From contig NZ_JAPDDS010000008.1 of NCBI RefSeq assembly GCF_025950085.1, forward strand, positions 186,001 through 250,000: a stretch of 64,000 bases of DNA, written 5' to 3'. The stretch's first letter is position 1, and the number at the start of each line of letters is the position of its first letter. Below are positions 19,266-39,397 of this stretch, one piece after another. This DNA comes from Luteolibacter flavescens. GTDB taxonomy: Bacteria > Verrucomicrobiota > Verrucomicrobiia > Verrucomicrobiales > Akkermansiaceae. The notes under the pieces were generated by a model. It saw only the letters and a program-made list of their open reading frames with translations. It did not search any database and had not been told where the DNA came from. Both the position numbers and the translations under genes were made by a program.

Positions 19266-19494
19266 GACAGCACTCCAGCGTGGTAGATCCGCGGGGGCAA
19301 GGACGGTCGTTGGTTCTTGGGTGGGGTGTTTGGTCGGCTTGGGGTTTGGCCGGGGCTCTCAAGGGCTGAGCGCCGACCGTAGTCGCACTCGTGACGGTGC
19401 GGGGGCTGTCCTTGTGGCGGACCTCACCCGTGGCTCGCGTGGTGCCCAGCGGAGGATGGGAAATGCAGGCTGCTCAGGTAGCGTCCCTCTCTCC

Positions 19495-20032
19495 AGGGCC
19501 AAAGGCCCGGCCATCCCTCAGCCCGGGCCATCGGCCCGGGACAAATGCCGTGCAAGCATGGCGGCCTGAAGGGCCGCGATACGTGACAGCAAGCCTCGAC
19601 CTGAAGAACACGCCGTGACGGCCATGCCGGGCAATGTCCTACCCGGGCAAGAGGCGGCGTTTGTTTGACCGGCAGGCCTGCATCCTATCGCAGCCCTTCA
19701 GGCCGCCGACCTGTGTCGATCACCCAACCCCGGCCGATGGCCGGGGCTGAGGGATGGCCGGACCTTTGGTCCTGAAAACCGGAGCTTTTGATGGCGGACT
19801 TCACCCGCGACTCCGCGTGATGTCACCACCGCTTCTACGGTGGGTGGGAAAGCACCGCTCACAGCATGGCCGACTGTAGTCACACCGGTAACAGTGCGGA
19901 GGCCGGATGAATTGCTGGCTTCTCATATGGCTCTCTACAGGGCCAAAGGCCCGGCCATCCCTCAGCCCGGGCCATCGGCCCGGGAACAACGTGGTGCGAT
20001 CATGGCGGCCTGAAGGGCCGCGATACGTGACG
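19495..20032. repeat. Repeat cluster a(+) b(-) a(+), three stem-loop elements
   Basis: The gap from 19266 to 20065 has no gene. It carries an a-type element forward (19495-19588), a b-type element reverse (19655-19830) and a second a-type element forward (19938-20032). Each element contains three hairpins: GGGCC-AAA-GGCCC in a or GGACC-AAA-GGTCC in b; CCCGGGCC-ATC-GGCCCGGG in a or CCCCGGCC-ATC-GGCCGGGG in b; and GCGGCC-TGAAG-GGCCGC. Between hairpins 1 and 2 lies the constant GGCCATCCCTCAG. The a element ends CGATACGTGAC; the b element continues through a GTTTGTTTGAC-containing (minus-strand reading: GTCAAACAAAC) segment. Confidence 0.92.
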
Positions 20033-21908: not shown

Positions 21909-24623
<2,715 letters not shown>

Positions 24624-24715
24624 GGGCGCGGAGGCATGCCAGAGGGCTCCCGGTTTGTAAAGGAGGGCGGCAAGCGAACCGCGATCACGGGTGGGGCTCG
24701 TTGCGGCGCCCCCCT

Positions 24716-25405
24716 GGGAGCGCCGGTCATCAGACCGGCCCGGATGGTCCCCGGCTGCGGACGGAGACCAGGTGCCCCCCGGGTGAGGCAGGTCCTTTGG
24801 AAAGTCAGGCGGAGGACAACGAAACGAACGAAACAGGCTAAAGAAAGGCGATGAAAACCAAGAAATTGGATAATTGAGAAAGCAGGCGATTGGGCGTTTT
24901 CGGATTCGAGCGCTTGGGTGAGGGCGGAAAGCCCACGAGGCATTTCAAATTTCGTCCATTTCGCTCGTTTCGTTGTCCTCCCTCTCCCTCCCGCCAAACG
25001 CACCGCACGGAGCCCCACCCACCGTGGTCGTGGTGGTGACACCATGCGAAGCTACGGGTAAGGTCTCCTATCAGAAACTCCGGTTTTCAGGACCAAAGGT
25101 CCGGCCATCCCTCAGCCCCGGCCATCGGCCGGGGTTTGAGGATCAAGATGGATCGGCGGCCTGAAGGGCTGCGATAGGATGCAGGTCGGTCAGTCAAACA
25201 AACGCCGCAAGTCGGCCGAGCCGAACATTGCCCCGCGCTGCCTTTACGTCGGGGCTTTCAGGGCGAGGCCCGCTGTCACGTATCGCGGCCCTTCAGTCCG
25301 CCATGCTCACGCAACGTGATCCCCGGGCCGTTGGCCCGGGCTGAGGGATGACCGGGCCTTTGGCCCTGGAGAGCTGAAGGGCCGGTCTGATGACCTTCGC
25401 TCCCC
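24716..25405. repeat. Composite repeat island 1: B - C - tract - C' - b(+) - a(-) - B
   Basis: The gap from valS to the YiiX-like gene (24624-25470) has no gene but is filled by an ordered island. A reverse B palindrome lies at 24717-24743; a C module (GGACAACGAAACGAACG) near 24825-24845; an ATTGG-rich tract to about 24925; the inverse C' (CGCTCGTTTCGTTGTCC) near 24960-24980; a forward b element 25023-25210; a reverse a element 25273-25370; and a degraded forward B (GCCGGTCTGATGACC) at 25381-25405. The same parts in the same order, inverted, make up 38634-39345. Confidence 0.9.
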
Positions 25406-25470
25406 AAGCCCCCAAGAAGACGCTTCCCCATGGACTCCCGGCGGATCGCGGTTATTCTCGGCGGAAAGAT

Positions 25471-26109
25471 ATGATGACGCGTTGCTCCTCCTCCGCTCTC
25501 GTGCTGTCCGCGACCCTCTCGCTCGCCGGTCTCGCCTCCGCCGATGTGGCGGCGGTACCGTATGACCTCCGCGAGGGCGATATCCTCTTCCACGGCACCG
25601 GCGGGCAACAGGCGGACGCGGTCCGCGGCGCGACGGATTCGCCCTACACGCACTGCGGCGTGGTGCTCAGCGACAAGGGCCGCCTGCTGGTGCTGGAGGC
25701 CGTGCAACCGGTGAGCATCACCACCGTGGAGGAATTCGAAAAACGCTCGAAGGCCGGCACCTTCCACGCCCGCCGCCTGAAGTCCGCGCCGGACGCCGCC
25801 GCGGTGGAAAAGGCGAAGGCCTGGGGAAAGAAGCAGGTCGGCCTGAACTACGACACCGGCTTCAAGTGGGGCGATGACAAGCTGTACTGCTCCGAGCTGG
25901 TCTGGAAGGTCTTCCACGAAGCCGGCGTGAAGCTCTGCGAGCCGCGCCGCTTCCACGACTACAAGCTCGACCACCCGGACGTGAAGCCGCTCATCGCCCA
26001 GCGCTACGGCTCCGCCGACAAGCTGCCGAAGAACGAGCCCGTCGTCGCCCCCAGCGACCTCGCGGAGTCGGACCTCCTAGTGGAAGTCCCGCGCGTGGAG
26101 AAGAAGTGA
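25471..26109 (+). CDS. YiiX/YebB-like papain-fold hydrolase, secreted
   Basis: A 212-residue protein with a signal peptide (CSSSALVLSATLSLAGLASA). It belongs to the permuted NlpC/P60-like YiiX/C92 group: YDLREGDILFH at the start of the mature protein, SPYTHCGVVL with the catalytic histidine, and YCSELVWKVF with the nucleophilic cysteine, in the permuted order (His before Cys). Such enzymes are thought to act on amide or thioester bonds in lipids or peptides; the substrate here is unknown. Start 25471 follows GGCGGAAAG by a few bases; an open frame upstream is repeat sequence. It lies directly beside island 1. Confidence 0.85.
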   Translation: MMTRCSSSALVLSATLSLAGLASADVAAVPYDLREGDILFHGTGGQQADAVRGATDSPYTHCGVVLSDKGRLLVLEAVQPVSITTVEEFEKRSKAGTFHARRLKSAPDAAAVEKAKAWGKKQVGLNYDTGFKWGDDKLYCSELVWKVFHEAGVKLCEPRRFHDYKLDHPDVKPLIAQRYGSADKLPKNEPVVAPSDLAESDLLVEVPRVEKK

Positions 26110-26180
26110 GGCCCGCCTCGCCGACGGGATGAATTTCCGGCTGGGGATTTGCGTCCCATGGAGCTTCAATCCCCGACGCC

Positions 26181-27683
26181 TTGAAGAAGACAGCTTCCAT
26201 CGCCGCAGCCATCGCCATCGCCGCCGGGGCCATTGCGATCTTTGCCTTGTCGAGCAGTGACGACGGGGAAGCCGCGGCGACCGGCAATGCCACGGGGACG
26301 CGCCCGGGCAGCCTGCCCTCGAAGACGGAAAGGATCGACGACGAGCGCGACCCCGAGCGCTTTGACACGCTGGATGCCGGGATGAAGGAACTGGCCCTGG
26401 AACTGGAGAAAGCCGCCATCAAGTGGCAGCGGAACCGGCCGGAAGATGAAGGTTTCCACCAACTCACGAATGACTGGCGGGAGTTTTCGATGGCGAAGAT
26501 CTCGGCTCTCGATATCGAACAAATCCGGCAGCTCGGCGAGTGGATGGACTCGGGCTCTTACTCGGAACTTCACGACTACCGGAAAGAGCTCATCACGATC
26601 TGGGCCTCCCGCGAGCCGGAGGTGGTTCGGGCGAGATTGATGGATATCGCGGAAGACCGAGGATTTCTGGGCGAGGGGGAGAGCGGTTGGAAGAATGCCT
26701 TCCGTGATGAATTTGCCGACGACCTCCACCATGCCTATGTCGGCCACGCCATGAAGGATCCCAAGTCGGCATGGGAGACATTCCTCAAGGACGAGGCCGA
26801 TCCCCGGATGAAGAGGCTGGTAAACGGAGTCATCACCGTCTCCGGAATTTTCAAGGAGTATGCCGCCCAGCTCCCGGGCGAGGCCTGGAGCCTAGCGCTG
26901 GCGACACAAGATCCCGACCATTCCACGCAGATGGTGGAGGGATTTGCGGACGGGGCACCCACCGGGCAGGACTGGGAGAAAAAAGGCTATGAGCTGGCGG
27001 AGTCGCTTGCCGCCCGCGGAATCGAAGCATCGCAATGGCCGTTCCAGTCGATCGGCGAACGCTGGCTCGCGGAAGATCCCGTCGCGGCCTTGGATTGGTT
27101 TGCCCGTTGCGCCCCGGAGGATGCCTTGAAGTCGGCCCGCGACCGTCTCAAGCGTGGTCGCAGTGACGATCCCTTCGAGGACGCTCCAGCACGCAACTCC
27201 GAGGAAGCCGCGATGCTACTGAAGACCTATCTCCTCGTCGAAATGTTCCACTCCTACAAGGATCGGAGCCGCGAGACCGTGACCGCCTTGCTTCACCTCA
27301 ACAAACACGGGGAGGATCAGGTGGCGCTCGAAGCCCTTGGCGAACTTTTGGGAGCGGGGCTCTATCCCATGAAGGTCCCGTTGCTCGAAGTGATTCCCGG
27401 AATCCCCTCGCCGGAGGACCGTAACTCCCTGTTTCTCCTAGCAGTGCGCGGGATTCCGAACCGGAGCAATGGGTTTCCTTTGGGGATCCTCGACCCGCAA
27501 CTTGAAGATCCGAATTCCAGCCTCGTCGCCATGCGTGCTCTCGCTGAGCGCCTCGACCTGCCAGCAGAGATCCGCGCCGAGGCGGAAGCAACTTTCCGAA
27601 ACGTGGAAGAACAGGAACTCAAGGCGCTCCAGAAATTAAAGCAGATGCGCCGCGATGGGGATAATCCCTTCGCTCCCCGCTGA
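26181..27683 (+). CDS. Membrane-anchored hypothetical protein, tandem copy 1
   Basis: A 500-residue protein with a short N-terminus, one membrane anchor (ASIAAAIAIAAGAIAIFALSS) and a large acidic, tryptophan-containing extracytoplasmic part. It has repeated W-x-x-x-D-P-x-A-A-like units (WLAEDPVAALDWF, MKDPKSAWETF), a helical-repeat style common in large Verrucomicrobia paralogue families without known function. It is about as long as copy 2 (27896-29398) and closely similar throughout. Compared with copy 2 the ATG is changed to ATC (26169-26171), so the only in-frame start is TTG 26181; the upstream ATG at 26158 is out of frame and stops at once. Expression may therefore be reduced. Confidence 0.72.
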   Translation: MKKTASIAAAIAIAAGAIAIFALSSSDDGEAAATGNATGTRPGSLPSKTERIDDERDPERFDTLDAGMKELALELEKAAIKWQRNRPEDEGFHQLTNDWREFSMAKISALDIEQIRQLGEWMDSGSYSELHDYRKELITIWASREPEVVRARLMDIAEDRGFLGEGESGWKNAFRDEFADDLHHAYVGHAMKDPKSAWETFLKDEADPRMKRLVNGVITVSGIFKEYAAQLPGEAWSLALATQDPDHSTQMVEGFADGAPTGQDWEKKGYELAESLAARGIEASQWPFQSIGERWLAEDPVAALDWFARCAPEDALKSARDRLKRGRSDDPFEDAPARNSEEAAMLLKTYLLVEMFHSYKDRSRETVTALLHLNKHGEDQVALEALGELLGAGLYPMKVPLLEVIPGIPSPEDRNSLFLLAVRGIPNRSNGFPLGILDPQLEDPNSSLVAMRALAERLDLPAEIRAEAEATFRNVEEQELKALQKLKQMRRDGDNPFAPR

Positions 27684-27714
27684 TTCATTCGATCATTCGC
27701 CTTTCCGGGCGTTC

Positions 27715-27850
27715 GGGGTTGGACGTGGGCGTTGGATCGCCACCTATCACGGCACAACTGGTCCCGTCGATCTCCTCCAGCAGCTCGTCCGCATCCCTTC
27801 CGTAAATCCGGACAAGCCGGGCTGGCCAAACCTGATCGCCGGGCTCGCCG
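27715..27850 (+). pseudogene. Relic of the 5' end of the M20 peptidase gene, copied with the tandem duplication
   Basis: The 212-base spacer between the two 500-residue genes repeats the sequence found before and inside the M20 gene at 29455-29560. It encodes TGPVDLLQQLVRIPSVNPD, identical to M20 residues 8-26 (counted from 29480). It then jumps to KPGWPNLIA, which matches KPGRPNLIA some 40 codons later in the intact gene, and then runs into the upstream region of copy 2. Both candidate ATG codons of the intact gene are changed here. It is a dead fragment with an internal deletion. Confidence 0.9.
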
Positions 27851-27895
27851 ACGGGATGAATTTCCGGCTGGGGGTTTGCGTCCCATGGAGCTTCA

Positions 27896-29398
27896 ATGCT
27901 GGACGCCTTGAAGAGGACAGCTTCCATCGCCGCAGCCATCGCCGCCGGAGCCCTGTTGATCTTTGCCTTGTCGGGCAGGGACGACGGGGAAGCCGCGGCG
28001 ACCGGCAATGCCGCGGGGACGCGCCCGGGCATCCTGCCCTCGAAGACGGAAAGGATTGACGACGAGCGCGACCCCGAGCGCTTTGACTCATTGGATGCCG
28101 GGATGAAGGAGCTGGCGCTGGAACTGGAGAAAGCTGCCATCAAGTGGGACCGGAACCGGACGAAGGATGTAGGTTTCTACCGGCTTAAGCATGACTGGCA
28201 GAAATACGCCCTCGAACGAATCGCCGATCTGAGCACCGACGAACTCCGTCAGCTCTACGAATGGATGGGAGAGGGCACTCGCTTCGTCTCGGAGCTCCAT
28301 GACTACCGGCAGGCCATTATAACGATCTGGGCATCCCGCGAGCCCGAGGTTGTCCGGACACGGCTGATGGAGATCGCTGAAGCCAATGGCTCGCTGAAGG
28401 AAGACGTCAGCCAGCTCGGAAACGATGCCCTTGCGCAGCTCGCCGACGACTTCCAAAGAGCCTATGTCGGCCACGCCATGAAGGATCCGAAGGGGGCATG
28501 GGAAGCCTTTTTGAAAGACGAGGTCGACTCCCGGGTTGATCAACTTACCCCCTTTGATGACGATATTGTCCCCGAAATTTTCAGAGAGTATGCCGCCCGG
28601 CTTCCGGGTGAAGCATGGAGCCTGGCGCTGACCACCAAAGGTGGGGACCGATGCAGGCTGATGGTGGATGGATTTGCGGACGGGGCACCTGCCGGGCAAG
28701 ACTGGGAGGTGAAAGGCCGTGAACTGGCCGACTCGCTGGCTGCCCGTGGAATGGAAGCATCGCATTGGGCCTTCCGCTCGATTGCCGGGCGCTGGGTCAT
28801 GGAGGACCCCATCGCGGCGCTGGAATGGTATTCCCATTCGGCCCCGGAGTCCGTGCTGCAACCGGCGAGCCACAGTCTTTATCCCGAAACTTGGGACGAT
28901 CCTTACGCAAACTCGTCTCCCCTGCGACCTGACGATGCCCCGAGGCTGCTCAAGGCGGATCTGCTCGTTGAAATGTATCACCCGCCCAGGGACCGGCGCC
29001 GCGAGATGATTTCCGCATTGGATCACCTGAATAAGAACGGTGAAGATCGATTGGTCTTTTTGACTGCTACCCGAATCTTGGGCAGGGAAATGGAGCCCTC
29101 GAAAATCCCCATACTCGGAGCGCTTCCCGCAATGCCCCCTTCCGGTGACCGGGACGCACTGTTTCTCCAGGCGGTCCGTGGAATTCCCACTCGGAACAAT
29201 AGAGATCAGAATTTCTCGATGCCGAACATGACATTGGACGGGCCGAATGCCAGCCTCGTCGCCCTCCAGGATCTCGCGGCTCGGCTCGACTTGCCGCCCG
29301 AGGTCCGCGCCGAGGCAGAAGCGAAGTTTCGGGAAGTGGAAGCGGCGGAAGAGGCACAACTCAAGGCACGCCAGAATTCGAAGCAACGGAGCCGGTAG
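27896..29398 (+). CDS. Membrane-anchored hypothetical protein, tandem copy 2
   Basis: A 500-residue paralogue of 26181-27683. It keeps the ATG start (MLDALKRTASIAAAIAAG) and a membrane anchor at about 8-27. The shared segment TERIDDERDPERFD is identical in both copies, while the middle (about 90-190) and C-terminus differ more. The W-x-x-x-D-P-x-A-A units recur (WVMEDPIAALEWYSH, MKDPKGAWEAF). About 70 bases of upstream sequence are also nearly identical between the copies. Topology suggests a periplasmic or surface helical-repeat protein; no enzyme motif is visible. The M20 gene follows after 81 bases. Confidence 0.8.
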   Translation: MLDALKRTASIAAAIAAGALLIFALSGRDDGEAAATGNAAGTRPGILPSKTERIDDERDPERFDSLDAGMKELALELEKAAIKWDRNRTKDVGFYRLKHDWQKYALERIADLSTDELRQLYEWMGEGTRFVSELHDYRQAIITIWASREPEVVRTRLMEIAEANGSLKEDVSQLGNDALAQLADDFQRAYVGHAMKDPKGAWEAFLKDEVDSRVDQLTPFDDDIVPEIFREYAARLPGEAWSLALTTKGGDRCRLMVDGFADGAPAGQDWEVKGRELADSLAARGMEASHWAFRSIAGRWVMEDPIAALEWYSHSAPESVLQPASHSLYPETWDDPYANSSPLRPDDAPRLLKADLLVEMYHPPRDRRREMISALDHLNKNGEDRLVFLTATRILGREMEPSKIPILGALPAMPPSGDRDALFLQAVRGIPTRNNRDQNFSMPNMTLDGPNASLVALQDLAARLDLPPEVRAEAEAKFREVEAAEEAQLKARQNSKQRSR

Positions 29399-29479
29399 AG
29401 GAGCGATCCCTTCCCCCCGCTGATTATTCATTCGCTCATTCGCCTTTCCGGGCGTTCGGGGTTGGACGTGGGCGGCTGG

Positions 29480-30625
29480 ATGGCCTCCTATCCCCTCATG
29501 ACTGGTCCCGTCGATCTCCTCCAGCAGCTCGTCCGCATCCCATCCGTGAATCCGGACAATCCGGCGGGCACGGACAAGACGGGCGAGGCGGCGCTGGCGG
29601 AGTTCCTGTCCGGCTGGCTGGCCGCGCTGGGCGCGGAGGTGGCGCTGGAGGAAATCAAGCCGGGCCGGCCGAATCTGATCGCCCGCTTCGCGCCGCGCGA
29701 TGGCAGGCCGCGCATCCTGCTGGGCCCGCACCTAGATACGGTGGGCGTGGGCAGCATGACCATCGACCCCTTCGGCGGGGAGATCGGTGACGGCCGGGTG
29801 TGGGGCCGCGGCACCTCGGACACGAAGGGCCCGATGGCGGCGATGCTATGGGGGCTGAAGGAAAACGCGGCGAGGCTGGCGGATCTGCCGGTGGCGGTGG
29901 ATTTCGTGGCCTTCATGGGCGAGGAGTCGGGCCAATGGGGCTCGAAGGATTTCGCGCGGCACCACGCGCATGACTACGCCTTCGCCATCGTGGGCGAGCC
30001 GACTTCGCTCGACATCGTCTATACGACGAAGGGCTCGCTATGGGCGACGCTGCGGGCGACGGGGAAGGCAGCGCATTCCTCGCAGCCGGAGCGCGGGGAC
30101 AATGCGGCGATGAAGCTGGCGCGCGCGCTGGACGTGCTGGAGCGCGAGCTGGCCGCGGAACTGGCGACCTACACGCACGACGTGCTGGGCCGCTCGACGA
30201 TCAATGTGGGCGTGCTTCGCGCGGGTTCGCGGCCGAATATCGTGCCGGATCTGGCAGAGGCGGAGATCGACATCCGCATCACCCCGGCCCTGCGCGATGC
30301 GGGCGGGGCGCTGGCGCTGCTGGAGAAGACGATCTCGCGGCTGGCATTGCCGCTGGAGATCGTGAAGCCGAAGGAGAATCCGCCGATGGAAATGCCGGAG
30401 ACGCACCCGTGGATCGGGCGCATCCGGGAGGTGCGCGCGGCGTCGAGGCCGGTGGGGGCACCGTGGTTTTCGGATGCGGCGCACTTATCCGATGCGGGGC
30501 TGGCATCGGTGTGCATGGGGCCCGGGTCGATCGACCAGGCGCACACGTGCGATGAATTCATCGAGATTGCCGCGCTGGAAGAGGGCGCGGTGTTTTTCTC
30601 GGAGTTGGTGAGGTCTTTGGGGTGA
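29480..30625 (+). CDS. M20 family metallopeptidase (ArgE/DapE/carboxypeptidase G2 type)
   Basis: A 381-residue zinc amidohydrolase. Metal and catalytic residues of the M20 family are in place: GPHLDTVG (His ligand and Asp), GRGTSDTKGPMAA (bridging Asp), MGEESGQWGSKDF (Glu-Glu), GEPTSLD (Glu ligand region), and a C-terminal MGPGSIDQAHTCDEFI with the last His ligand. A dimerisation insert with GKAAHSSQPERGDNA lies in the middle. The family includes N-acetylornithine, succinyl-diaminopimelate and [LysW]-aminoadipate hydrolases; the sequence alone does not choose between them. ATG 29480 is used; TTG 29462 and ATG 29498 are alternatives. Its first codons were copied into the relic at 27715. Confidence 0.88.
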   Translation: MASYPLMTGPVDLLQQLVRIPSVNPDNPAGTDKTGEAALAEFLSGWLAALGAEVALEEIKPGRPNLIARFAPRDGRPRILLGPHLDTVGVGSMTIDPFGGEIGDGRVWGRGTSDTKGPMAAMLWGLKENAARLADLPVAVDFVAFMGEESGQWGSKDFARHHAHDYAFAIVGEPTSLDIVYTTKGSLWATLRATGKAAHSSQPERGDNAAMKLARALDVLERELAAELATYTHDVLGRSTINVGVLRAGSRPNIVPDLAEAEIDIRITPALRDAGGALALLEKTISRLALPLEIVKPKENPPMEMPETHPWIGRIREVRAASRPVGAPWFSDAAHLSDAGLASVCMGPGSIDQAHTCDEFIEIAALEEGAVFFSELVRSLG

Positions 30626-30684
30626 GGGGACTTTCTTCGTGGCGCGCTTCGCGCTTCGTAGCGGAGCGACTGCGTCGCTCCGGC

Positions 30685-30943
30685 GGGGTGCGGGCCGCCT
30701 GATGGGGCGACGTGGCGATTTCCCGTCACGCCGCGCCCAGCCCGAATGGCGAAGCCATTCTGCTACGTTCGGGGTGCGGGCCGCCTGATGGGGCGACGTG
30801 GCGATTTTCCTTCACGCCTCGCCCAGCCCGAATGGCGAAGCCATTCTGCTACGTTCGGGGTGCGGGCCGCCTGATGGGGCGACGTTGCGGTTTCCCTTCA
30901 CGCCTCGCCCTGCCCGAATGGCGCAGCCATTCTACTACGTCGG
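30685..30943. repeat. 86-bp tandem repeat, three units
   Basis: Units start at 30685, 30771 and 30857, a constant 86-base period. Each holds GGTGCGGGCCGCCTGATGGG and a hairpin GAATGGC-GAA-GCCATTC. A separate perfect hairpin GGAGCGAC-TGC-GTCGCTCC lies just before the array (30663-30681). The array fills most of the gap between the M20 gene and prmC; the third unit has drifted most. Confidence 0.95.
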
Positions 30944-31015
30944 CCACGTTGCCTGCGTCGAAAATCCACTTTGCCTTGCCTCATCCGCTTCCGGCGCGCT
31001 GACTTTCCCCCGCGC

Positions 31016-31882
31016 ATGACGACCGTTCTGGAGACCCTCGACAAGGGCACCGCCTATCTGACGAAAAAGGGCATCGAGGACGCTCGGCGAAACATGCAAC
31101 TGCTGGTGGCCCACCAGCTTGCGTGCACGCGCATGGATCTCTACCTGCGCTTCGACCAGCCACTGGAGGAGACCGATCTGGCCCCGCTGCGCGACCTGCT
31201 GAAAAAGCGCGGCGAGGGCGTGCCGATCCAGCACCTCATCGGCTACGTCACCTTTCACCGCCGCGACTTCAAAACGGACGCCCGCGCGCTGATCCCCCGC
31301 CCGGAGACGGAGGAGCTGGCGGAGTGGCTGCTGAAAAATGCAAAGCTCCCGCCCAATCCGCGTATCCTCGACATGGGCTGCGGCAGCGGCGTGCTCGGCC
31401 TGACGCTGGCGGCAGACACCCCCGGCTCGCATGTCACGCTCGCAGACGTCTCGCCGGAGGCTCTCGCGCTCGCCCGGGAAAACGCGGCGGAGCTGGAAGT
31501 GACCAATGTCACCTTCGTCGAAAGCGATCTCTTCACCGCTCCCCAGCTCGGCGGGCCGGGCTACGACCTGATCGTGGCAAATCTTCCCTACGTCCCGGAG
31601 GTGGACCGGCCGACGCTGGCGAGGGAGCTGGCGCACGATCCCGCGCTGGCGCTCTTCAGCGGGGCGGACGGGCTGGATCTCATCCGGCGCTTCGTCCCCG
31701 AGGCGGCGGCGCGGCTGGCTCCCGGCGGCTGGCTTGCCTTGGAAATCGGCATCGACCAGTCGCGCGAGGTCGAGGGCTTGATGCAGCGGGCTTCCCTGAC
31801 CGGCGTCTTGACTCTCAAGGACCTTTCCGGCATCCCCCGCTTCCCGATCGCGCGATGCGGTGGTTCCCCCACGGATCACTGA
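31016..31882 (+). CDS. prmC: Peptide chain release factor N5-glutamine methyltransferase
   Basis: This methylates the glutamine of the GGQ motif of release factors RF1/RF2 using S-adenosylmethionine. The 288-residue protein has the N-terminal helical domain, the linker with PIQHLIGYVTF and ALIPRPETEEL, the AdoMet-binding LDMGCGSGVLGL at 118-129, and the catalytic NLPY at 189-192 (usually NPPY; Leu for Pro is a tolerated variant). ATG 31016 aligns with the usual N-terminus. It ends 31 bases before murA, so the two genes are probably one transcript. Confidence 0.93.
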   Translation: MTTVLETLDKGTAYLTKKGIEDARRNMQLLVAHQLACTRMDLYLRFDQPLEETDLAPLRDLLKKRGEGVPIQHLIGYVTFHRRDFKTDARALIPRPETEELAEWLLKNAKLPPNPRILDMGCGSGVLGLTLAADTPGSHVTLADVSPEALALARENAAELEVTNVTFVESDLFTAPQLGGPGYDLIVANLPYVPEVDRPTLARELAHDPALALFSGADGLDLIRRFVPEAAARLAPGGWLALEIGIDQSREVEGLMQRASLTGVLTLKDLSGIPRFPIARCGGSPTDH

Positions 31883-31913
31883 TCGATCACCGGTCACCCT
31901 TTTCACCACTTCA

Positions 31914-33182
31914 ATGGACAAGCTCATCGTTCACGGCGGCACCCCGATTCACGGCGCGATCACGATCTCCGGGTCGAAGAACGCCTCGCTGCCGATCCTA
32001 GCCGCCACGCTGCTGACCGATGAGGACTGCGTGATCCGCCGCGTGCCCGATGTCTCGGACACGAACTACATGGTGCAAATCCTCAGCGCGCTGGGTGCGG
32101 ATGTGGAGCGCTTCTCCGGTACGGTGCGGGTGACGGCGGCGGATATCTCGGACACCGCGGACTACGAGATCGTGCGCCGCATGCGAGCGTCCGTCTGCGT
32201 GATGGGCCCGTTGCTGGCGCGGAAGCGCCGCTGCGTGGTGGCGCTGCCCGGCGGCTGCGTCATCGGGGACCGGCCGGTGGACCTGCACGTCCGCGGCTTG
32301 GAAGCCCTCGGCGCGAAGGCGGAGATCGAGGGGGGAAATGTGGTGCTCTCCGCTCCGGACGGCCTGAAGGGCGCGACGATCGACCTCTGCGGCCCGATGG
32401 GCCCGACCGTGCTGGGCACGGACAATGTGATGATGGCCGCGACGCTGGCCGAGGGCATCACCACGATCACCTCCGCGGCGTGCGAGCCGGAGGTGGTGGA
32501 CCTGGCGGATTTCCTGAATTCCATGGGCGCGAAGATCACTGGAGCCGGCACGCCGGTCATCACGATCGAGGGCGTGGAAAAGCTGAAGGGCACGGTGCAC
32601 AATGTGATCCCGGACCGCATCGAGGCCGGCACCTTCATGGTGGCCGCGGCCATCGCGGGGGAGGGCGTCACGCTGCGCCGCCTGCGCCACGAGCACCTCA
32701 CGGCCGTGACCGCGGCGCTGCGCAAGGCTGGCCACCAGGTGCACTTCAATGACGTGGGCGATGCCTGCACCATCCACCGCGCGGACAATCCGATGCCCGC
32801 GGAGATCGTGACGGAGCCGTATCCCGGCTACCCCACGGACATGCAGGCGCAGATGACGGCGCTCTTTGCCACCACGCCGGGCACGAGCATGGTGGTGGAC
32901 ACGATTTTCCCGCAGCGCTTCATGCACTGCGCGGAGCTGAAGCGCATGGGCGCGGACATCCAGGTGAATGACGGCAAGGCCGTGATCAAGGGCGTGGACC
33001 AGCTCAGCGCCGCCCCGGTGATGGCCAGCGACCTGCGCGCCTCCGCCGCCCTCGTCCTGGCCGCCCTGACGGCAAAGGGCAGCACCGAGATCCGCCGCCT
33101 CTATCACATCGACCGCGGCTACGAGCACATCGATGAAAAGCTCCAGGCGCTCGGTGCAAATCTGGAGCGCGTGCGCGAGTAG
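31914..33182 (+). CDS. murA: UDP-N-acetylglucosamine 1-carboxyvinyltransferase
   Basis: This is the first committed step of peptidoglycan synthesis: enolpyruvyl transfer from PEP to UDP-GlcNAc. The 422-residue length is standard. The UDP-GlcNAc site SGSKNAS has K22-N23, and the catalytic cysteine C115 lies in LPGGCVIGDRPVDLH, so the enzyme should be fosfomycin-sensitive (C115 not replaced by Asp). YPTDMQAQMTAL near residue 305 is also family-typical. ATG 31914 matches the family start; the frame is open further upstream into prmC. Confidence 0.97.
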   Translation: MDKLIVHGGTPIHGAITISGSKNASLPILAATLLTDEDCVIRRVPDVSDTNYMVQILSALGADVERFSGTVRVTAADISDTADYEIVRRMRASVCVMGPLLARKRRCVVALPGGCVIGDRPVDLHVRGLEALGAKAEIEGGNVVLSAPDGLKGATIDLCGPMGPTVLGTDNVMMAATLAEGITTITSAACEPEVVDLADFLNSMGAKITGAGTPVITIEGVEKLKGTVHNVIPDRIEAGTFMVAAAIAGEGVTLRRLRHEHLTAVTAALRKAGHQVHFNDVGDACTIHRADNPMPAEIVTEPYPGYPTDMQAQMTALFATTPGTSMVVDTIFPQRFMHCAELKRMGADIQVNDGKAVIKGVDQLSAAPVMASDLRASAALVLAALTAKGSTEIRRLYHIDRGYEHIDEKLQALGANLERVRE

Positions 33183-33258
33183 TATCCATCCCGCATCGGC
33201 GCGCCGGGCGGCGACGGGGAGATCCCGGGCATTCCGCCCAGGGCGCGCGGTACCTCAA

Positions 33259-36129
33259 TCAATGTGAGGATACCTCAGGCAACGCCTGCGTCCCATAGAG
33301 CGGGCAATCGTAGTCCAGCGGCGGGCTGATGGTGGGCAGCGGCAGCGTCGGCGGGATGAGCCAGCCGGGCACGGAATTCTGGATCTGGTCCGTGCGGTCG
33401 GTCAGGCGGATGTAGGGTTCCGCGCCGCCGCTCATGCGGAGTTGCAGCTCTGCGCCTCCGGGCACGCTGTGCTTCCAGTGGTCGGGGAAGCTGCCTTTCT
33501 TCTGGCGGAAGCCCTCCAGGCGCAGCGCGCTGAGGGTGACGATGCGCCGCCACGAGAGCTGGCGGTGATCTTCGCAGAAATTCAGGATGAGATTCGCCTC
33601 GCCCGGCTCCACCGCGACCCTCATGCCGATCTGCGGCGGCAGGTCGCCCACGCGGCGGCTGCTCCGCCAGTGGCGGGCCAGCGCGACGGACGCGGGCAGA
33701 GCGGGGGTATTCTTCTCCGCCAGCAGGCGGCGGACGACGCGGATCCGGGGATAGAGATCCCGCCAGAAGCGCGGGTCCAGCGAGGCCTGCGCGGCGGCGT
33801 CGGCGATGGCGGAGAGCTGGCTGCGCTCCGACCACGCGGCCACCAGCAGCAGGCTCTCCACCTCCGGGTTTGGCGCGACGTTCCGACCGGAAATCAGGGT
33901 GTCCAGGCGATCAATGTCCGCCGCCTTCAGGTGACCGGCGGAGGCCTCGCGTTCGATCACGGACAGCACGCGGAGCTCGATGCCGGAGAGCTGCTCGCGC
34001 CGCTCCAGGCTGGTGGCGGGCTCGGACGCACCGAGGATGATGAGCATTTCCTCCGCCCGCTCCAACGTGTCGGCTCGGTTCCCCGCGGCGGCGCTGCGCT
34101 CGAGCTGCTGGCACTGCACCTCCACCCAGACGGGCAGGGCACGGGAGTCGATGAGATTGGTACGGGTGGCGATGTTCGCCTTTTGCCAGTCCAGGCGGTC
34201 CAGCCGCTTCGCCAGCACGGGGAGGAGGTGGGTGGCCGCATTGCGAGTGTCCTGCTTCCGCAGGATGGGGTCGGCATTCACCGGCGGCCTGCCGGCTTCC
34301 GTCTCTGTGGCCAGCGCTACCAGTGCGGCCTTGTCCTCGGTGCCGAGCTGGCGGGTCTCGCGGGGGAAGGTGCGGCGGAATTCCAGCACATGCTCCGCAT
34401 TCCGCACCACGCGGCCGGTATCGCTGAGCACCGGGCCGAGCAGCACGCCCACCAGCAGCAGCGCGGGCGCGGCGCAGGCCACGGCCAGCAGGGTGCCCCC
34501 GGCCAGCCGGGTGAAGAAGATGGGCCGCTTGCGCATCACCTCGATGAGCAGCGCCTCGATCTTCTTGTGCCAGCCCTCGCTGCCGATGAAGGCACCCTGG
34601 CCCTCCTCCCGCATGCCGCGGAAGATCCGGCGCAGTGCCTCCGGCTCGTCATTGATCTCGCCCGCCCATGGCAGCTTGCGCGCGCCGCGCACCACCTGGA
34701 TCGTCTTCACGTCCCACAGCACCCCGCCGAACATGGCGGCGGCGACGTAACGCAGCACGCGGGACTTCAGCAGCACCGCTGCGGCGAAGGTGGTGAGCGA
34801 CGAGGTGACGGTGAAAAAGGGCCGTAGCATCGGCATGTCGCGGAAGACGAGCAGGTCCACTACCTTGCCCCCGTCCATCGGCAGCACCGGCAGCAGGTGC
34901 AGGGCATTCAGCGCCACCGCCATGCCCGCCGCATCCAGCAGCCACAGCGGCGTCGTCGGCTCGAAGTAACCGTGGCCCAGCATCGAGAGGCCGGCGACCA
35001 GGCCGGGCAGCGGGCCGCCCAGATGGACCATGAGCTGCTGCCAAGCCGGCGCGTGCAGCTTTCTCGCGCGCTCCGTGGCCCCGGTGAAGGGGATGAAGAC
35101 CGGCGGCACGCCCTTGTAGCGGAAGAACCGCATCGGCAGCCAGTGGCCGGCCTCGTGCAGCGCCATCAGCACCAGCACCGTCAGCGCCGTCTGCAGGGGC
35201 TGGTCCCGACCAAAAATGGCGATGAAGGCCGCCACGGTGCCAAGCACCACGACGATGCGGCGCAGGTGATCGAGCGGGCTGGAGCGCACGGCGATGAGTG
35301 CCCGGTAGCGCGCAAGATCCTGCTCCACCGCTTGATTCAGCGACAGGCCGATGGGTCCGCCCACACGCTCCCCCTCGTCCACCCGCGCCTTCGCCGGGGC
35401 GGCCACGTCGCGACGGGTCGCCGAGCGGAAACTGCGGCCGGAGAAAAAGTCCGCCAGCAGCGGCAGCACCCGGGACGGCAGGCGCGTGTAGCGCAGCCGC
35501 AGGATGTCCGGGTCATTTTTCGTGGGGACGAATTCGCCTCCCTTCACCTGGGCTTCGTGGCGCGCCTCCTCGTCCGCCTCCAGCATTCCGGCGAATTTCT
35601 CCACCGGCGGCAGCACGCGCTCCGTGAGGCCGCGCACCCGGGCGTAGTGGAGCTTCCACTGCGACGCCACGGTGCCGAAGAACCGCTGGATATCTTGCCA
35701 CCATGCCGGCGGGTGGTGCGTGATCCGGCGGTCTGCCGTCACCACCAGCGTGCCATCCCGCTGCGCCGTGAAAAATGTCAGCGACACGCTCGCCCCCGCA
35801 CCGCTCACCGGCACCGTGCGCTCCAGCGTCGCGTAGGTCTTCTCCTCGTCATTGAGCAGGATCCAGCGGTGCGCCTCGGCATAGCCCGCGCTCTCGAGCC
35901 GCGACACCTGCGCCTGGCGGAAGCCGAAGTGGCCCAGCCGATTCACCCACGGGGCCATCCTCCGCCGCACGTCCGGCGGCACCTGATAGGCATCGCAGGG
36001 ATGCGCCTTCACCCGGTAGCGCCGCACATTCGCCACTGCCACGAAGGCGCAGAAGAGCGGAAGCCCCGTCGCGAATACGAGGGCCAGGAGGGCGAGACCA
36101 AAGGACATCCCTGGAAATGCGGCGAGCAT
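33259..36129 (-). CDS. Large M50 (site-2-protease-like) membrane metalloprotease
   Basis: A 956-residue polytopic protein. The zinc motif HEAGH is at 325-329, inside a membrane helix (VLVLMALHEAGHWLPM), and the second M50 signature NALHLLPVLPMDGG supplies the third ligand D419. Helices flank both. An N-terminal helix (about 8-30) precedes a 250-residue cytoplasmic or periplasmic domain; after the protease core another helix (about 555-580) leads to a 370-residue C-terminal region rich in helices, resembling a repeat solenoid. Site-2 proteases cut membrane-bound regulators such as anti-sigma factors. ATG 36129 is chosen; a TTG at 36168 in AT-rich sequence is less likely. It is a monocistronic minus-strand gene, convergent with murA. 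Confidence 0.85.
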   Translation of the reverse strand: MLAAFPGMSFGLALLALVFATGLPLFCAFVAVANVRRYRVKAHPCDAYQVPPDVRRRMAPWVNRLGHFGFRQAQVSRLESAGYAEAHRWILLNDEEKTYATLERTVPVSGAGASVSLTFFTAQRDGTLVVTADRRITHHPPAWWQDIQRFFGTVASQWKLHYARVRGLTERVLPPVEKFAGMLEADEEARHEAQVKGGEFVPTKNDPDILRLRYTRLPSRVLPLLADFFSGRSFRSATRRDVAAPAKARVDEGERVGGPIGLSLNQAVEQDLARYRALIAVRSSPLDHLRRIVVVLGTVAAFIAIFGRDQPLQTALTVLVLMALHEAGHWLPMRFFRYKGVPPVFIPFTGATERARKLHAPAWQQLMVHLGGPLPGLVAGLSMLGHGYFEPTTPLWLLDAAGMAVALNALHLLPVLPMDGGKVVDLLVFRDMPMLRPFFTVTSSLTTFAAAVLLKSRVLRYVAAAMFGGVLWDVKTIQVVRGARKLPWAGEINDEPEALRRIFRGMREEGQGAFIGSEGWHKKIEALLIEVMRKRPIFFTRLAGGTLLAVACAAPALLLVGVLLGPVLSDTGRVVRNAEHVLEFRRTFPRETRQLGTEDKAALVALATETEAGRPPVNADPILRKQDTRNAATHLLPVLAKRLDRLDWQKANIATRTNLIDSRALPVWVEVQCQQLERSAAAGNRADTLERAEEMLIILGASEPATSLERREQLSGIELRVLSVIEREASAGHLKAADIDRLDTLISGRNVAPNPEVESLLLVAAWSERSQLSAIADAAAQASLDPRFWRDLYPRIRVVRRLLAEKNTPALPASVALARHWRSSRRVGDLPPQIGMRVAVEPGEANLILNFCEDHRQLSWRRIVTLSALRLEGFRQKKGSFPDHWKHSVPGGAELQLRMSGGAEPYIRLTDRTDQIQNSVPGWLIPPTLPLPTISPPLDYDCPLYGTQALPEVSSH

Positions 36130-36168
36130 CCGGGTGAAGTAAGTGGGGAGGGTATTTTTAAAAATCAA

Positions 36169-36497
36169 GGTTCATTTAAATTCGGATATTTCTTGAAATT
36201 CCGAAATCGCGGTCCCGTGAGACCACCTGAGCCTTGATTCTGTTCAATTTTTGTTTGCGACGGGCACGCCGCCCCCACCTGTCGTATCAGGTGGTAATGG
36301 GGTAATAAGGGATTCCACCAATAGTTAAAGAAACTTAATCAAATTGCAGCAATTTTTGCAGGGTGCTGGTGTTGCAGGGCTTGCAAATCCGCGGTCCGAT
36401 TTTCCCTCTGGATTTAAAAATTCCCGGGCAACGCGGTTCTTTGAATGGTCCGGTCCAGAGCCGACGATCCTGGGTTTAGGAGCCGATTCTTTCTCGG
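36169..36497. other. AT-rich gene-free stretch upstream of the M50 gene
   Basis: No supported gene. The region is clearly lower in GC than its surroundings, with runs such as AACTTAATCAAATTGCAGC near 36330-36350. A CCACCTG/CAGGTGG hairpin lies near 36275-36295. It probably contains the promoter of the M50 gene, but I could not pick out defined boxes. Confidence 0.5.
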
Positions 36498-36873
36498 TAG
36501 TCGTGGTGGTAACACCACGCGGAGCCACGGGTGGTCACCACTGAAGCCAAGGGTAAGGTCCGCCGCCAGCAGCTCCGGCTTTGAGAACCAAGGGTCCGGC
36601 CATCCCTCAGCCCCAGCCATCGGCCGGGGTTGGCTGATCGACACAGGTCGGCGGCCTGAAGGGCCGCGATACGATGCAGGCCGGTTAGACAAACAAACGC
36701 CGCAACCGATCTCGACGCAGGATACCTCGACGCGTTGCCTCCACCCTGTGACCTCCAGGCCGAGGCCCACCATCACGTATCGCGACCTTTCAGGCCGCCA
36801 TGCCCGCGCAACGTGATCCCCGGGCCGCTGACCCGGGCTGAGGGATGGCCAAGCCTTTGACCCTGAAGAGAAG
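36498..36873. repeat. Repeat pair b(+) a(-), tail to tail
   Basis: A b element runs 36498-36705 and an a element in reverse 36773-36873, with a 67-base spacer. The b copy has GAACC/GGGTCC in stem 1, partly decayed, and CCCCAGCC/GGCCGGGG in stem 2. The a copy keeps the constant GGCTGAGGGATGGCC. The remaining sequence to 37007 holds a decayed extension and no gene. It lies upstream of the M50 gene and downstream of the TPR gene. Confidence 0.85.
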
Positions 36874-37007
36874 GACGCTACCTGAGAAGCCTGCATTTCC
36901 ATCCTCTGCTGGACACCACGCGAGCCACGGGTGGGAACCGCTACAGGGCCGGCTTCCGCACTGTGCCCAGTGCGACTATGGTCACCAGTGCAGCTACGGG
37001 AAGCGGG

Positions 37008-37556
37008 TTATGCGGAGGTCGTGCGCGTACGATGGGCGGCGAGGAGTTCCAGCAGCCAGGGGCGGATGGCCTCGAGGTCGGGGTCGATGAGGCCCATTTC
37101 CAGCATTTGCTCGGGATCAGTGGCGGTGGCGCGGTGGAAGTAGCCGCGTGCTTCATCGGTGCGGCCCTGCATGCAGGCGTAGCAGGCGAGATTGTAGAGC
37201 ATCATGCCATTCGCCGGGTGGCGGGTGAGGCCGGCGCGGAGGATCATCTCGGCTTCCTGGAGGGAGGCGGCGCGGCGTTGGGCGTAGGCGGCTTGGATCC
37301 ACCAGCCGGGATCGGAGGGCTCCTGCTCGGTCATGGGCACGCAGATCGCGGCGGCGGCGGGCCAGTCGCCGAGGCGGAAGAGGACATCGACGCGCAGATG
37401 CAGGGCGAGGCTGCCGGGTGCGGTGATTTCATCCAGCTCGGCGAGAGCTTCCTCCGGCAGGCCGAGTTCCAGGTAGCCCATCGCTCGGCGGCAGGCGGCA
37501 TCGGGGTCGTGGGTCACGGGGATAGCTTCGATGCGGCGGCGGAATTGGCAAAGCAT
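37008..37556 (-). CDS. Tetratricopeptide-like repeat protein, coupled to the YheT-type hydrolase
   Basis: A 182-residue soluble protein of paired helices. The clearest TPR units are AMGYLELGLPEEALAELDEI, LRVDVLFRLGDWPAAAAIC, WIQAAYAQRRAASLQEAEM and YNLACYACMQGRTDEARGYF, each with the small-residue/large-residue spacing of the family. These make a right-handed solenoid that would bind partner proteins. The start ATG (37556-37554) overlaps the stop of the upstream hydrolase by one base (TGATG), so translation is probably coupled. The C-terminus is RTRTTSA. The partner is unknown. Confidence 0.8.
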   Translation of the reverse strand: MLCQFRRRIEAIPVTHDPDAACRRAMGYLELGLPEEALAELDEITAPGSLALHLRVDVLFRLGDWPAAAAICVPMTEQEPSDPGWWIQAAYAQRRAASLQEAEMILRAGLTRHPANGMMLYNLACYACMQGRTDEARGYFHRATATDPEQMLEMGLIDPDLEAIRPWLLELLAAHRTRTTSA

Positions 37557-38527
37557 CACTCGCCGGCGAGGAACTCCGCCGCGCGGGTCTCCGCCCAGCT
37601 CTCCCCTCCCCTGCCGCCGCCGTGGAATCCGCAGTGCCCGCCATCCTGCGGCACCTCCAAGTGGAAGCACGCGCTGGCCTCCGCCTCCTCGCGGGGGAAG
37701 CACCCGGGGCCGAGGAAGGGATCATTCGCCGCATTCACGAGCAGCGCGGGGATGGCGATGCGCGGGAGAAAGGGCCGCGAACTACTACGTCTCCAGTAGT
37801 CCTCCGCATCGGCGAAGCCGTGGAGCGGCGCGGTGTAGCGGTCGTCGAAGCCGCGGAAGTCGCGGATCTTCCACGCGCCGCGGAGGTCGATGCGGTCCGG
37901 GAAGCGCGGGCGCTTTTCGGCGAGCTTCCTCCGCAGCGAGACGAGGAAGCGCCGCATGTAGATGTGGCGGTTGATGGCGGAGGAAAGCCGGGCGGACGAG
38001 CACGCGAGATCGCACGGCACCGAGAAGGCGGCCGCGCGGTGCAGGCGCGGGTCGATGTCGCGCGCATCCCCACGCTCGCCGAGATACTTCAGCGTCATGT
38101 TTCCCCCGAGGCTGAAGCCGACGAGATCGACGCGCGACGCCCGGTGGACGGCGAGCGCGTGGCGCACGACATGATCGAGGTCATCGGACGCGCCGCTGTG
38201 GTAGAATTTCAGCAGGCGGTTCGATTCGCCGCTGCACCCGCGGTAGTTCCAGGCGAGCACGTCCCAGCCGCGGGCCTGCAGCGCGCGGGCCATGCCCTGG
38301 ATGTAGGTCGCCTTTGAATCCGCCTCGAGGCCGTGAGACAGGATGACGAGGCGGTCATTGCCGCGGGTGGACCAGTCGAGGTCGAGGAAATCGCCATCGG
38401 GGAGCTCAAGGCGTTCGCGGCGCATCTCGAGCGGCGGGACTTTCCGGAAAAGCGCGGGGACGATGGTCTGCAAGTGCCCGCCCCGCAACCACGCCGGGGC
38501 ACGATAGCGGGATGGGACGACAGGCAC
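37556..38527 (-). CDS. YheT-type alpha/beta hydrolase (UPF0017)
   Basis: A 323-residue alpha/beta hydrolase of the YheT/EMB8 group. Family landmarks are RAPAWLRGGHLQTI at the N-terminus, HGLEADSKATYIQGMA after the oxyanion strand, WNYRGCSGESNRL, and the nucleophile elbow VGFSLGGNMTLKYLG (Ser in GFSLGG). An Asp in ANDPFLGP and a His in GGHCGFH complete the triad. The family is widespread, with esterase-like activity reported but no settled substrate. It is translationally coupled to the TPR gene; composite island 2 lies upstream. Confidence 0.9.
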   Translation of the reverse strand: MPVVPSRYRAPAWLRGGHLQTIVPALFRKVPPLEMRRERLELPDGDFLDLDWSTRGNDRLVILSHGLEADSKATYIQGMARALQARGWDVLAWNYRGCSGESNRLLKFYHSGASDDLDHVVRHALAVHRASRVDLVGFSLGGNMTLKYLGERGDARDIDPRLHRAAAFSVPCDLACSSARLSSAINRHIYMRRFLVSLRRKLAEKRPRFPDRIDLRGAWKIRDFRGFDDRYTAPLHGFADAEDYWRRSSSRPFLPRIAIPALLVNAANDPFLGPGCFPREEAEASACFHLEVPQDGGHCGFHGGGRGGESWAETRAAEFLAGE

Positions 38528-38633
38528 GCGGCGGGTGTAGTGGACGGACTGGCGCGGGGCGATGAAAATGGAGGGGGATGAAGGCGGAGGAGATTGAGGG
38601 ATTGGGGGATTGGTGATTGAGGGGCGTTTTCCT

Positions 38634-39345
38634 GGGAGCGCCGGTCATTAGACCGGCCCGGGTGATGCAGGGTGGTCCTTCTCAAATAGCGTCCTTCTCT
38701 TCAGGGCCAAAGGCCCGGCCATCCCTCAGCCCAGGCCAACGGCCCGGGAAACGGGTTGCCCTGAAGACGGCGGCCTGAAAGGTCGCGATACGTGATGGCG
38801 ATTCTCAACCTGAATGCCACCGCGTGGAAGCAATGCGTCGGGATCACTTGCGGCGTTTGTTTGACTGACCGGCCTGCATCCTATCGCAGCCCTTCAGGCC
38901 GCCGATCCATCTTGATCCTCAAACCCCGGCCGATGGCCGGGGCTGAGGAATGGCCGGACCGTTGGTCCTGAAAACCCGGGCTTCTGGCGGCGGACCTCAA
39001 TCGTCGCTTCCGTCGCTTCCGGGGTGGCACCACCACGACTACGGCGGGTATGGGGGCAGCCCGGACGATGCTGTTAGAGGGAGGGGACAACGAAACGAGC
39101 GAAATTGGCGAAATTTGAAATGCCCTTGGTCTTTCTTTCGCCACCCAAACTCTCAAACGCCCAATTACCCAATCACCTGATTTCTCAATCCCCCAATCCC
39201 ATTTCCCCTGCCTTTCTTTCGTCAATTTCGCTCGTTTCGTTGTCCACCCATGTCTTTCCAAAAGACCACCGCTTCCCGGGGGCGACGGGTTTCCATCGGC
39301 AGTCGGCGACCATTCGGGCCGGTCTGATGACCGGCGCTCCCGGGG
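38634..39345. repeat. Composite repeat island 2: B - a(+) - b(-) - C - tract - C' - B
   Basis: The gap 38528-39397 has no gene. It contains a reverse B palindrome (38634-38662), a forward a element (38703-38795), a reverse b element (38849-39045), a C module (GGACAACGAAACGAGCG near 39078-39094), a CCCAATTACCCAATCACC tract, an inverse C' (near 39220-39242) and a forward B (39315-39342). Read on the other strand it has the same order as island 1. The HIT gene starts 53 bases beyond the island end. An ATTGG-type tract (38590-38632) also precedes it. Confidence 0.92.
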
Positions 39346-39397
39346 GAGGATCGCGCGGTGCTTGCAGGGGCGGGGCGGATCGCGCTTCGCTGTGGGC

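Follow-up and report, generated by a model that had tools for sequence, protein, structure and literature searches.

Introduction

Hairpin repeats and the Y1 HUH tyrosine transposases that accompany them are the closest described parallels to two islands of ordered repeats, each about 700 bp long, that lie in a 64,000-nucleotide stretch of the Luteolibacter flavescens genome (NCBI RefSeq assembly GCF_025950085.1, contig NZ_JAPDDS010000008.1, positions 186,001 to 250,000 of the forward strand; hereafter the window). In the accessible parts of PMC3733652 and PMC6006769, the GTAG repetitive extragenic palindromes (REPs) of class-2 REP-associated tyrosine transposases (RAYTs), and the REP doublets forming hairpins (REPINs), are short hairpins with a GT[AG]G tag, present in many copies and paired head to head with their tags outside, with one family per RAYT located beside its gene. 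The available text of PMC3733652 also describes TIRtrons, or terminal inverted repeat-associated tyrosine transposases, in which a Y1 gene sits between inverted repeats that are also found as dimers or clusters. Subclass 1.2 of TnpA_Y1, as presented in PMC6006769 (2018), is characterized by the motifs DH[IV]H, WQ and YIKNQKEHH and a median length of 148 aa; it is tabulated without REP and mostly from Cyanobacteria and Bacteroidetes, an entry that describes the sample of 2018 and is not a defining feature of the protein.

The islands compare with these systems in two ways, one for each of their parts. We conclude that each island is probably a non-autonomous REPIN-like doublet nested in another, the two belonging to different transposase systems. 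The outer part (B-C-spacer-C'-B') pairs two GGAG-tagged REP hairpins in inverted orientation, and hairpins of this type are found beside class-2 RAYTs (TnpA_REP) in congeners; the outer part shares the short tagged hairpin, the high copy number and the head-to-head doublets of the GTAG REPs, but differs in its tag (GGAG in B, GGAA in a sister family), in doublets that reach ~700 bp with filler in the islands, and in that no RAYT was found in the same assembly. The inner part (D-ab-spacer-b'a') resembles, from its sequence, a deletion derivative of an element of the form 'H1-H2-H3, tnpA, H3'-H2'-H1'', where tnpA is a Y1/HUH gene with the subclass 1.2 signature; by description, the TIRtrons are also similar. 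As in IS200/IS605 (subclass 1.1), a Y1 HUH transposase is combined with subterminal hairpins and no target duplication; unlike in that group, the Y motif here carries HH, a single divergent gene accompanies each repeat family in the assembly, and many copies of the ends are gene-less.

Anatomy of the islands

The assembly (G000; 5.9 Mb in 71 contigs, 97.5% complete, with the window on contig 8 and C-numbers denoting its contigs) carries the islands at 24716-25404 and 38634-39341 in inverse orientation. All sampled 60-mers of locus L162, from the congener G012, recur in L246 of Luteolibacter marinus, from which the host would be a congener of L. marinus. BLAST pairs 24710-25373 with inverted 38697-39346 in an alignment of 678 columns (77.9% identity, E 3e-110), and both islands present the order B, C, ATTGGG tract, C', a/b, b'/a', B' (Table 1), which bears out an earlier note that had drawn attention to them from the sequence. 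Mirror copies of both a and b make the inner part an inverted doublet in its own right, and the stretch from C' through a linker to D, a module delimited by eye only, can be aligned between the two islands; the D module of island 1 is also common to ab copies near 19.6, 36.5 and 42.7 kb. The B' of island 1 is degenerate, retaining GGTCATCAGACC with CGCCGG changed to CGAAGG.

The earlier note had seen in each island a possible single B-to-B element and had recognised no known family in it. Both parts are nonetheless REP/REPIN-type repeats, and a single element is not supported: B-C-C'-B' and ab doublets occur separately, and in a genome search the full-length composite is limited to the two islands, the next-best match covering 360 bases of the 721-base query. 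What held of that proposal is that B forms constant inverted boundaries around variable interiors, and that any mover of the islands would act in trans.

An ATTGGG-type tract is also present at 38589-38625, just outside island 2, so that the tract is not confined to the element. The ab-family copies between 11.3 and 44.5 kb of the window are ~80-84% identical to one another, against at most 78% over the full doublet with most other contigs; on this sequence comparison, they look as if they had been locally spread or converted.

The outer element

In most copies, B reads GGGAGC-GCCGGTC-ATNA-GACCGGC-CCGAG. The window contains 16 matches with at most 3 mismatches, at 9 sites of which some were matched on both strands, for a shuffle expectation of 0.88; 66 matches with at most 1 mismatch were found genome-wide and none with the reversed control, as befits a short palindrome in many copies. 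The fetched G000 sequence contains 68 copies that differ from B by no more than 2 mismatches; CT immediately precedes GGGAG in 58 of them, and 15 of the 16 neighbouring pairs within 1 kb face inward without any hand selection; an alternative list to which eight near-exact copies were added by hand gives 15 of 17, with spacings of 38-681 bp. The simple form B-C-spacer-C'-B', devoid of the inner part, occurs at C7:34847 and C10:85897 and aligns to the islands except for the insert beside B'.

The same frame is found with other stems in 257,884 fetched bases, chiefly GCGGAA-TTCA-TTCCGC (28 copies). Genome-wide, this sister-stem family amounts to 55 copies in G000, 77 in the congener G009 and 33 in G007; the remaining 15 genomes have 0-3 apiece. 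In G009 its members form inverted pairs ~52 bp apart and lie on both sides of a class-2 RAYT gene, whose product scores 81.4 bits against NF047646 (cut-off 80). Repeats flank both sides of 28 of the 29 testable RAYT-type loci of the genus, a count for which the control had no usable windows (0/0). B itself was beside no RAYT gene in the loci examined; its link to this RAYT clade is one of resemblance, through a common tag, spacing and tail rather than through a B copy next to a RAYT.

No match to NF047646 or to the G009 RAYT protein was detected in G000, while the other 15 genus genomes of at least 90% completeness match both. B therefore has the look of a REP whose enzyme is missing, unless the gene sits in an assembly gap, as it could in 71 contigs that are 97.5% complete given that such a gene is repeat-flanked. 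Thus G000 is the sole genome of the 16 with at least 90% completeness without a class-2 RAYT match, yet it has more than 100 class-2-type hairpins.

The inner element and its candidate transposase

Each ab arm consists of H1 (loop mostly AAA/AAC), a linker ending in CTCAG, H2 (loop mostly ATC/AAC) and H3 (loop TGAA). H3 was read directly from the window sequence, the unit scan of G000 having captured it in 0 of 57 cases because its stems are imperfect. These 57 H1-H2 units of the fetched G000 sequence face inward in 21 of the 29 neighbouring pairs within 400 bp, and 20 of the 21 inward pairs are spaced 232-270 bp; B pairs (15/16) and ab pairs (21/29) alike thus have the REPIN form of two inverted REPs with tags outside. 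The ab doublets also occur apart from B in G000. BLAST with an ab query returned 121 matches in G000, 38 in G007 and 22 in G009, with 0-3 for every one of the 15 further genomes, these being matching pieces and not copies.

Units of the ab type lie on both sides of a 150-aa Y1/HUH transposase gene in G000 (C22:42398-42847), and they also flank its orthologue in G007 (80% identical). The C22 protein has the motifs DHVH, WQAGY and YIAGQAEHH, agreeing with the DH[IV]H, WQ and Y---Q--HH of subclass 1.2 (Y-I-x-x-Q-x-x-HH when the isoleucine is counted) as well as with its length of ~148 aa. PF01797 has three matches in G000; the copy on C3 shares 57% identity with the C22 one and that on C14 45%, and the near-identical tnpA-bearing copies that would mark an IS200/IS605 element were not found in this genome. 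The third subclass-1.2-like gene (L063, C14:114740-115075) has its own, different flanking repeat, made of CCCCGGAGGGGC and CCGGTGGC...GCCACCGG.

Subclass-1.2 genes were also considered as movers of B, and this candidate was dropped because GGAG/GTAG hairpins with a B-type tail gave scattered matches only beside these genes and B or tail words were absent there, apart from single CGAAACGA or ATTGGG words at L160, L169 and L185.

Subclass 1.2 loci beyond the window

Flanking repeats are not peculiar to Luteolibacter. Our sample joins 30 loci from within the genus to 80 genome_contigs loci, the best of 359 relatives; 101 of these 110 have both flanks of at least 300 bp. A repeat shared between upstream and downstream flanks (E <= 1e-4) was present in 89 of the 101. 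Pseudo-gene positions taken from these loci gave 5 of 121, and cross-locus pairs gave 25 of 101, the latter control not being clean because units of different genomes are alike and five loci are duplicates. Once the 5 duplicates are removed, repeats flank the gene on either side in 86 of 96 distinct loci; the match reaches E <= 1e-8 in 79 of these and an inverted match is present in 71, so that the 'without REP' description of the subclass does not apply to this set. The loci with repeats come from Verrucomicrobia, Planctomycetes, Acidobacteria and others, unlike the mostly cyanobacterial and Bacteroidetes hosts of the 2018 table, and an examination of 119 related loci, among which some genes appear twice, showed the Y motif in 111.

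The repeats have a recognizable build. A fixed-geometry unit (H1 with 5-3-5, 12 nt ending in AG, H2 with 8-3-8) was found 73 times, at 50 of the 101 genes, against 14 in 3550 control windows. A three-hairpin detector scored upstream of 58 and downstream of 67 of the 101 loci, compared with 1 of 275 control windows and 0 of 101 shuffled sequences; on the opposite strand it also scores in 40 and 42 loci, because each hairpin is a palindrome. Stem variation is compensated, with 11 of 13 pairs changing on both sides and a covariation score of 0.443 versus 0.130 for shuffled units; the units had been preselected for pairing, which inflates the 99.7% of paired cells.

Some of these ends coincide with Acido-Lenti-1 (RF01687), filed as a small RNA: its two-hairpin motif stands at the ends of subclass-1.2 genes in 18 of the 80 relatives' loci. 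At the gathering score, the model has 37 matches in these loci. No more than 250 bp separate 28 of them from the transposase gene, in a zone that makes up 9.7% of the non-gene sequence, and 24 of the 28 point outward; the 80 loci were selected by the transposase gene, and the figures are a statement on those loci and not on RF01687 copies elsewhere. Mirrored matches beside subclass-1.2 genes, often at 42-66 bp, are seen in L218, L239, L253, L276, L280 and others. The ab units of the window are unmatched by the model, which has no hit in the window at gathering and none in 11000-45000 at E up to 5. In the available text of its source paper, RF01687 is a probable RNA of Acidobacteria and Lentisphaerae, and the accessible part of a 2026 paper considers that little is known of it and that it may regulate neighbouring proteases; no link to a transposase is stated in these portions of the Acido-Lenti-1 literature. 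A separate RNA model, Rfam abiF, has two matches at L241:5143-5265.

Taken as a whole, we find it rather likely that TnpA_Y1 subclass 1.2 is a widespread, unrecognised REP-moving family (Verrucomicrobia, Planctomycetes, Acidobacteria and others) whose ends share a conserved build of several hairpins (H1 5-3-5, then 12 nt of linker ending in AG, H2 8-3-8, often a third hairpin), that Acido-Lenti-1 is this DNA end and not an independent RNA, and that in L. flavescens such doublets are nested in GGAG-tagged REPINs which have lost their own RAYT. The connection between subclass 1.2 and Acido-Lenti-1 appears to be new and to reach past the window; searches of open-licence papers, covering the text but not the figures and supplements of PMC3733652, turned up no earlier mention of REP-like ends for the subclass or of a transposon-end nature of RF01687. 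A transposase class tabulated without a repeat partner thereby gains a concrete, high-copy candidate substrate, and an unexplained Rfam 'RNA' becomes a testable transposon-end hypothesis. G000 also provides a natural comparison between a REP family with a transposase and one apparently without.

Proposed mechanism and alternative explanations

By analogy with established Y1 HUH chemistry, in which hairpins are recognised in single-stranded DNA and cutting is guided by the tag, we infer that each enzyme would recognise its own hairpins in single-stranded DNA, that its tyrosine would cut at a short site beside the tag, and that the strand would be rejoined elsewhere without target duplication. 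In the outer family the site is probably the CT before GGGAG; CT is also where E. coli TnpA_REP cuts, according to the accessible text of PMC8266576. The simplest history would be a single nesting beside B', after which the composite was duplicated once, 14 kb away, since the two islands can be aligned across the C'-linker-D junction; the enzyme of the outer family would have been lost.

Several observations weigh against this explanation. The junctions beside B' are not alike in the two islands, the outer part is without a resident mover in G000, and the GT[AG]G tag is replaced by GGAG in B and by either GGAA or GGAG among the sister-stem copies. Although 22 ab matches lie in G009, its closest protein to the C22 transposase is only 55% identical, and the C3 gene of G000 (L172) is without an upstream-downstream repeat. 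NCBIfam names the C22 protein an IS200/IS605 transposase (64.1 bits, cut-off 55), so that its assignment to subclass 1.2 rests on motifs and length. No movement has been observed.

The islands could instead be copies of a single ~700-bp non-autonomous transposon, similar to a miniature inverted-repeat transposable element (MITE) and moved as a unit with B as terminal inverted repeats. Inward-facing B pairs, sites that are short in congeners and a C'-D linker that aligns between the islands, implying that the composite itself was copied once, count in its favour; nevertheless it is very unlikely, since only two full copies exist in the genome and its two components are found apart. Nor was any target-site duplication, the hallmark of a MITE of a DDE transposon and a check suggested by the earlier note, found over 15 B pairs, whose flanks share 14 letters against 11.5 with shuffled partners. 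Another account, which we hold to be improbable, is that independent repeats were gathered by chance or by repeated insertion into the same intergenic regions and that the shared order is convergent, for instance because ab favours the neighbourhood of B. Several REP families are indeed clustered in this part of contig 8, and the dissimilar junctions beside B' would fit, but the alignment of the islands runs through C', linker and D over 678 columns at 78%.

That the hairpins are retained for an RNA function (as regulators or terminators, or as small RNAs of the Acido-Lenti-1 sort), with a secondary link to transposases, also seems unlikely to us. Such a function too predicts the compensated stem variation, seen in units preselected for pairing; the authors of RF01687, in the text available, list it as a probable RNA, and RNA roles of REPs in other bacteria are mentioned in the accessible part of PMC3733652. 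Conversely, the units occur as inverted doublets, and RF01687 matches are mostly near the transposase gene and outward-pointing (28/37 and 24/28), albeit in loci chosen by that gene. The nested doublets of two transposase systems remain the explanation that we prefer.

Genomic sites and feature coordinates

Gene neighbours were identified by Pfam and synteny, and 13 congener loci were examined per site. Island 1 occupies a gap of 847 bp. Its neighbours are a valyl-tRNA synthetase gene on the minus strand, which starts at 24623, and a plus-strand C92 peptidase gene (25471); both neighbours are within the fetched flank in 1 of 13 congener loci (G009), with a gap of ~265 bp. The gap of island 2 measures 870 bp and is bounded by a minus-strand alpha/beta hydrolase gene (start 38527) and a plus-strand HIT gene (39398), and 9 of 13 congener loci keep both neighbours, with gaps of ~91-304 bp. 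The empty sites sought by the earlier note are found in part: where a congener retains the neighbours its orthologous site is short, but a lone B-type hairpin stands at site 2 of G009, which is thus not simply empty. As G009 also has a GTAG-type hairpin at site 1, small REPs may predate the islands.

Table 1. Positions of the repeat modules in the window.
Feature	Position	Strand	Basis
B, GGAG-tagged hairpin, island 1 left end	24716..24740	+	motif and hairpin scans
C module, island 1	24811..24842	+	arm of inverted repeat I2
ATTGGG-rich tract between C and C', island 1	24866..24935	no strand	limits by eye
C', inverse C module, island 1	24950..24981	-	inverted-repeat arm
D module, leading part of inserted ab element, island 1	25022..25075	+	limits by eye
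ab unit, island 1	25090..25175	+	H1 25090-25102, H2 25116-25134, H3 25152-25175
inverted b'a' unit, island 1	25279..25366	-	H3' 25279-25302, H2' 25322-25340, H1' 25354-25366
B', degenerate GGAG-tagged hairpin, island 1 right end	25380..25404	-	motif and hairpin scans
B of island 2, adjoining ab side	38634..38658	+	motif and hairpin scans
ab unit, island 2	38700..38790	+	H1-H2 38700-38748, H3 38768-38790
inverted ab unit, island 2	38882..38972	-	H3 38882-38904, H2-H1 38924-38972
D module, island 2	39023..39045	-	limits by eye
C-type arm, island 2	39085..39113	+	inverted repeat
C-type arm, inverse, island 2	39217..39245	-	inverted repeat
B' of island 2	39317..39341	-	motif and hairpin scans
further ab-family units without B: one doublet and one more unit	19489..20031	no strand	BLAST, unit scan
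further ab-family doublet without B	36543..36889	no strand	BLAST, unit scan

The GTAG-tagged hairpin at site 1 of G009 (L125) has a B-like tail (CCGAGTGGTCCCC) and stands at the same distance from valS as position 24716 of the window, as if, to judge from these letters, the hairpin had been swapped and the tail kept.

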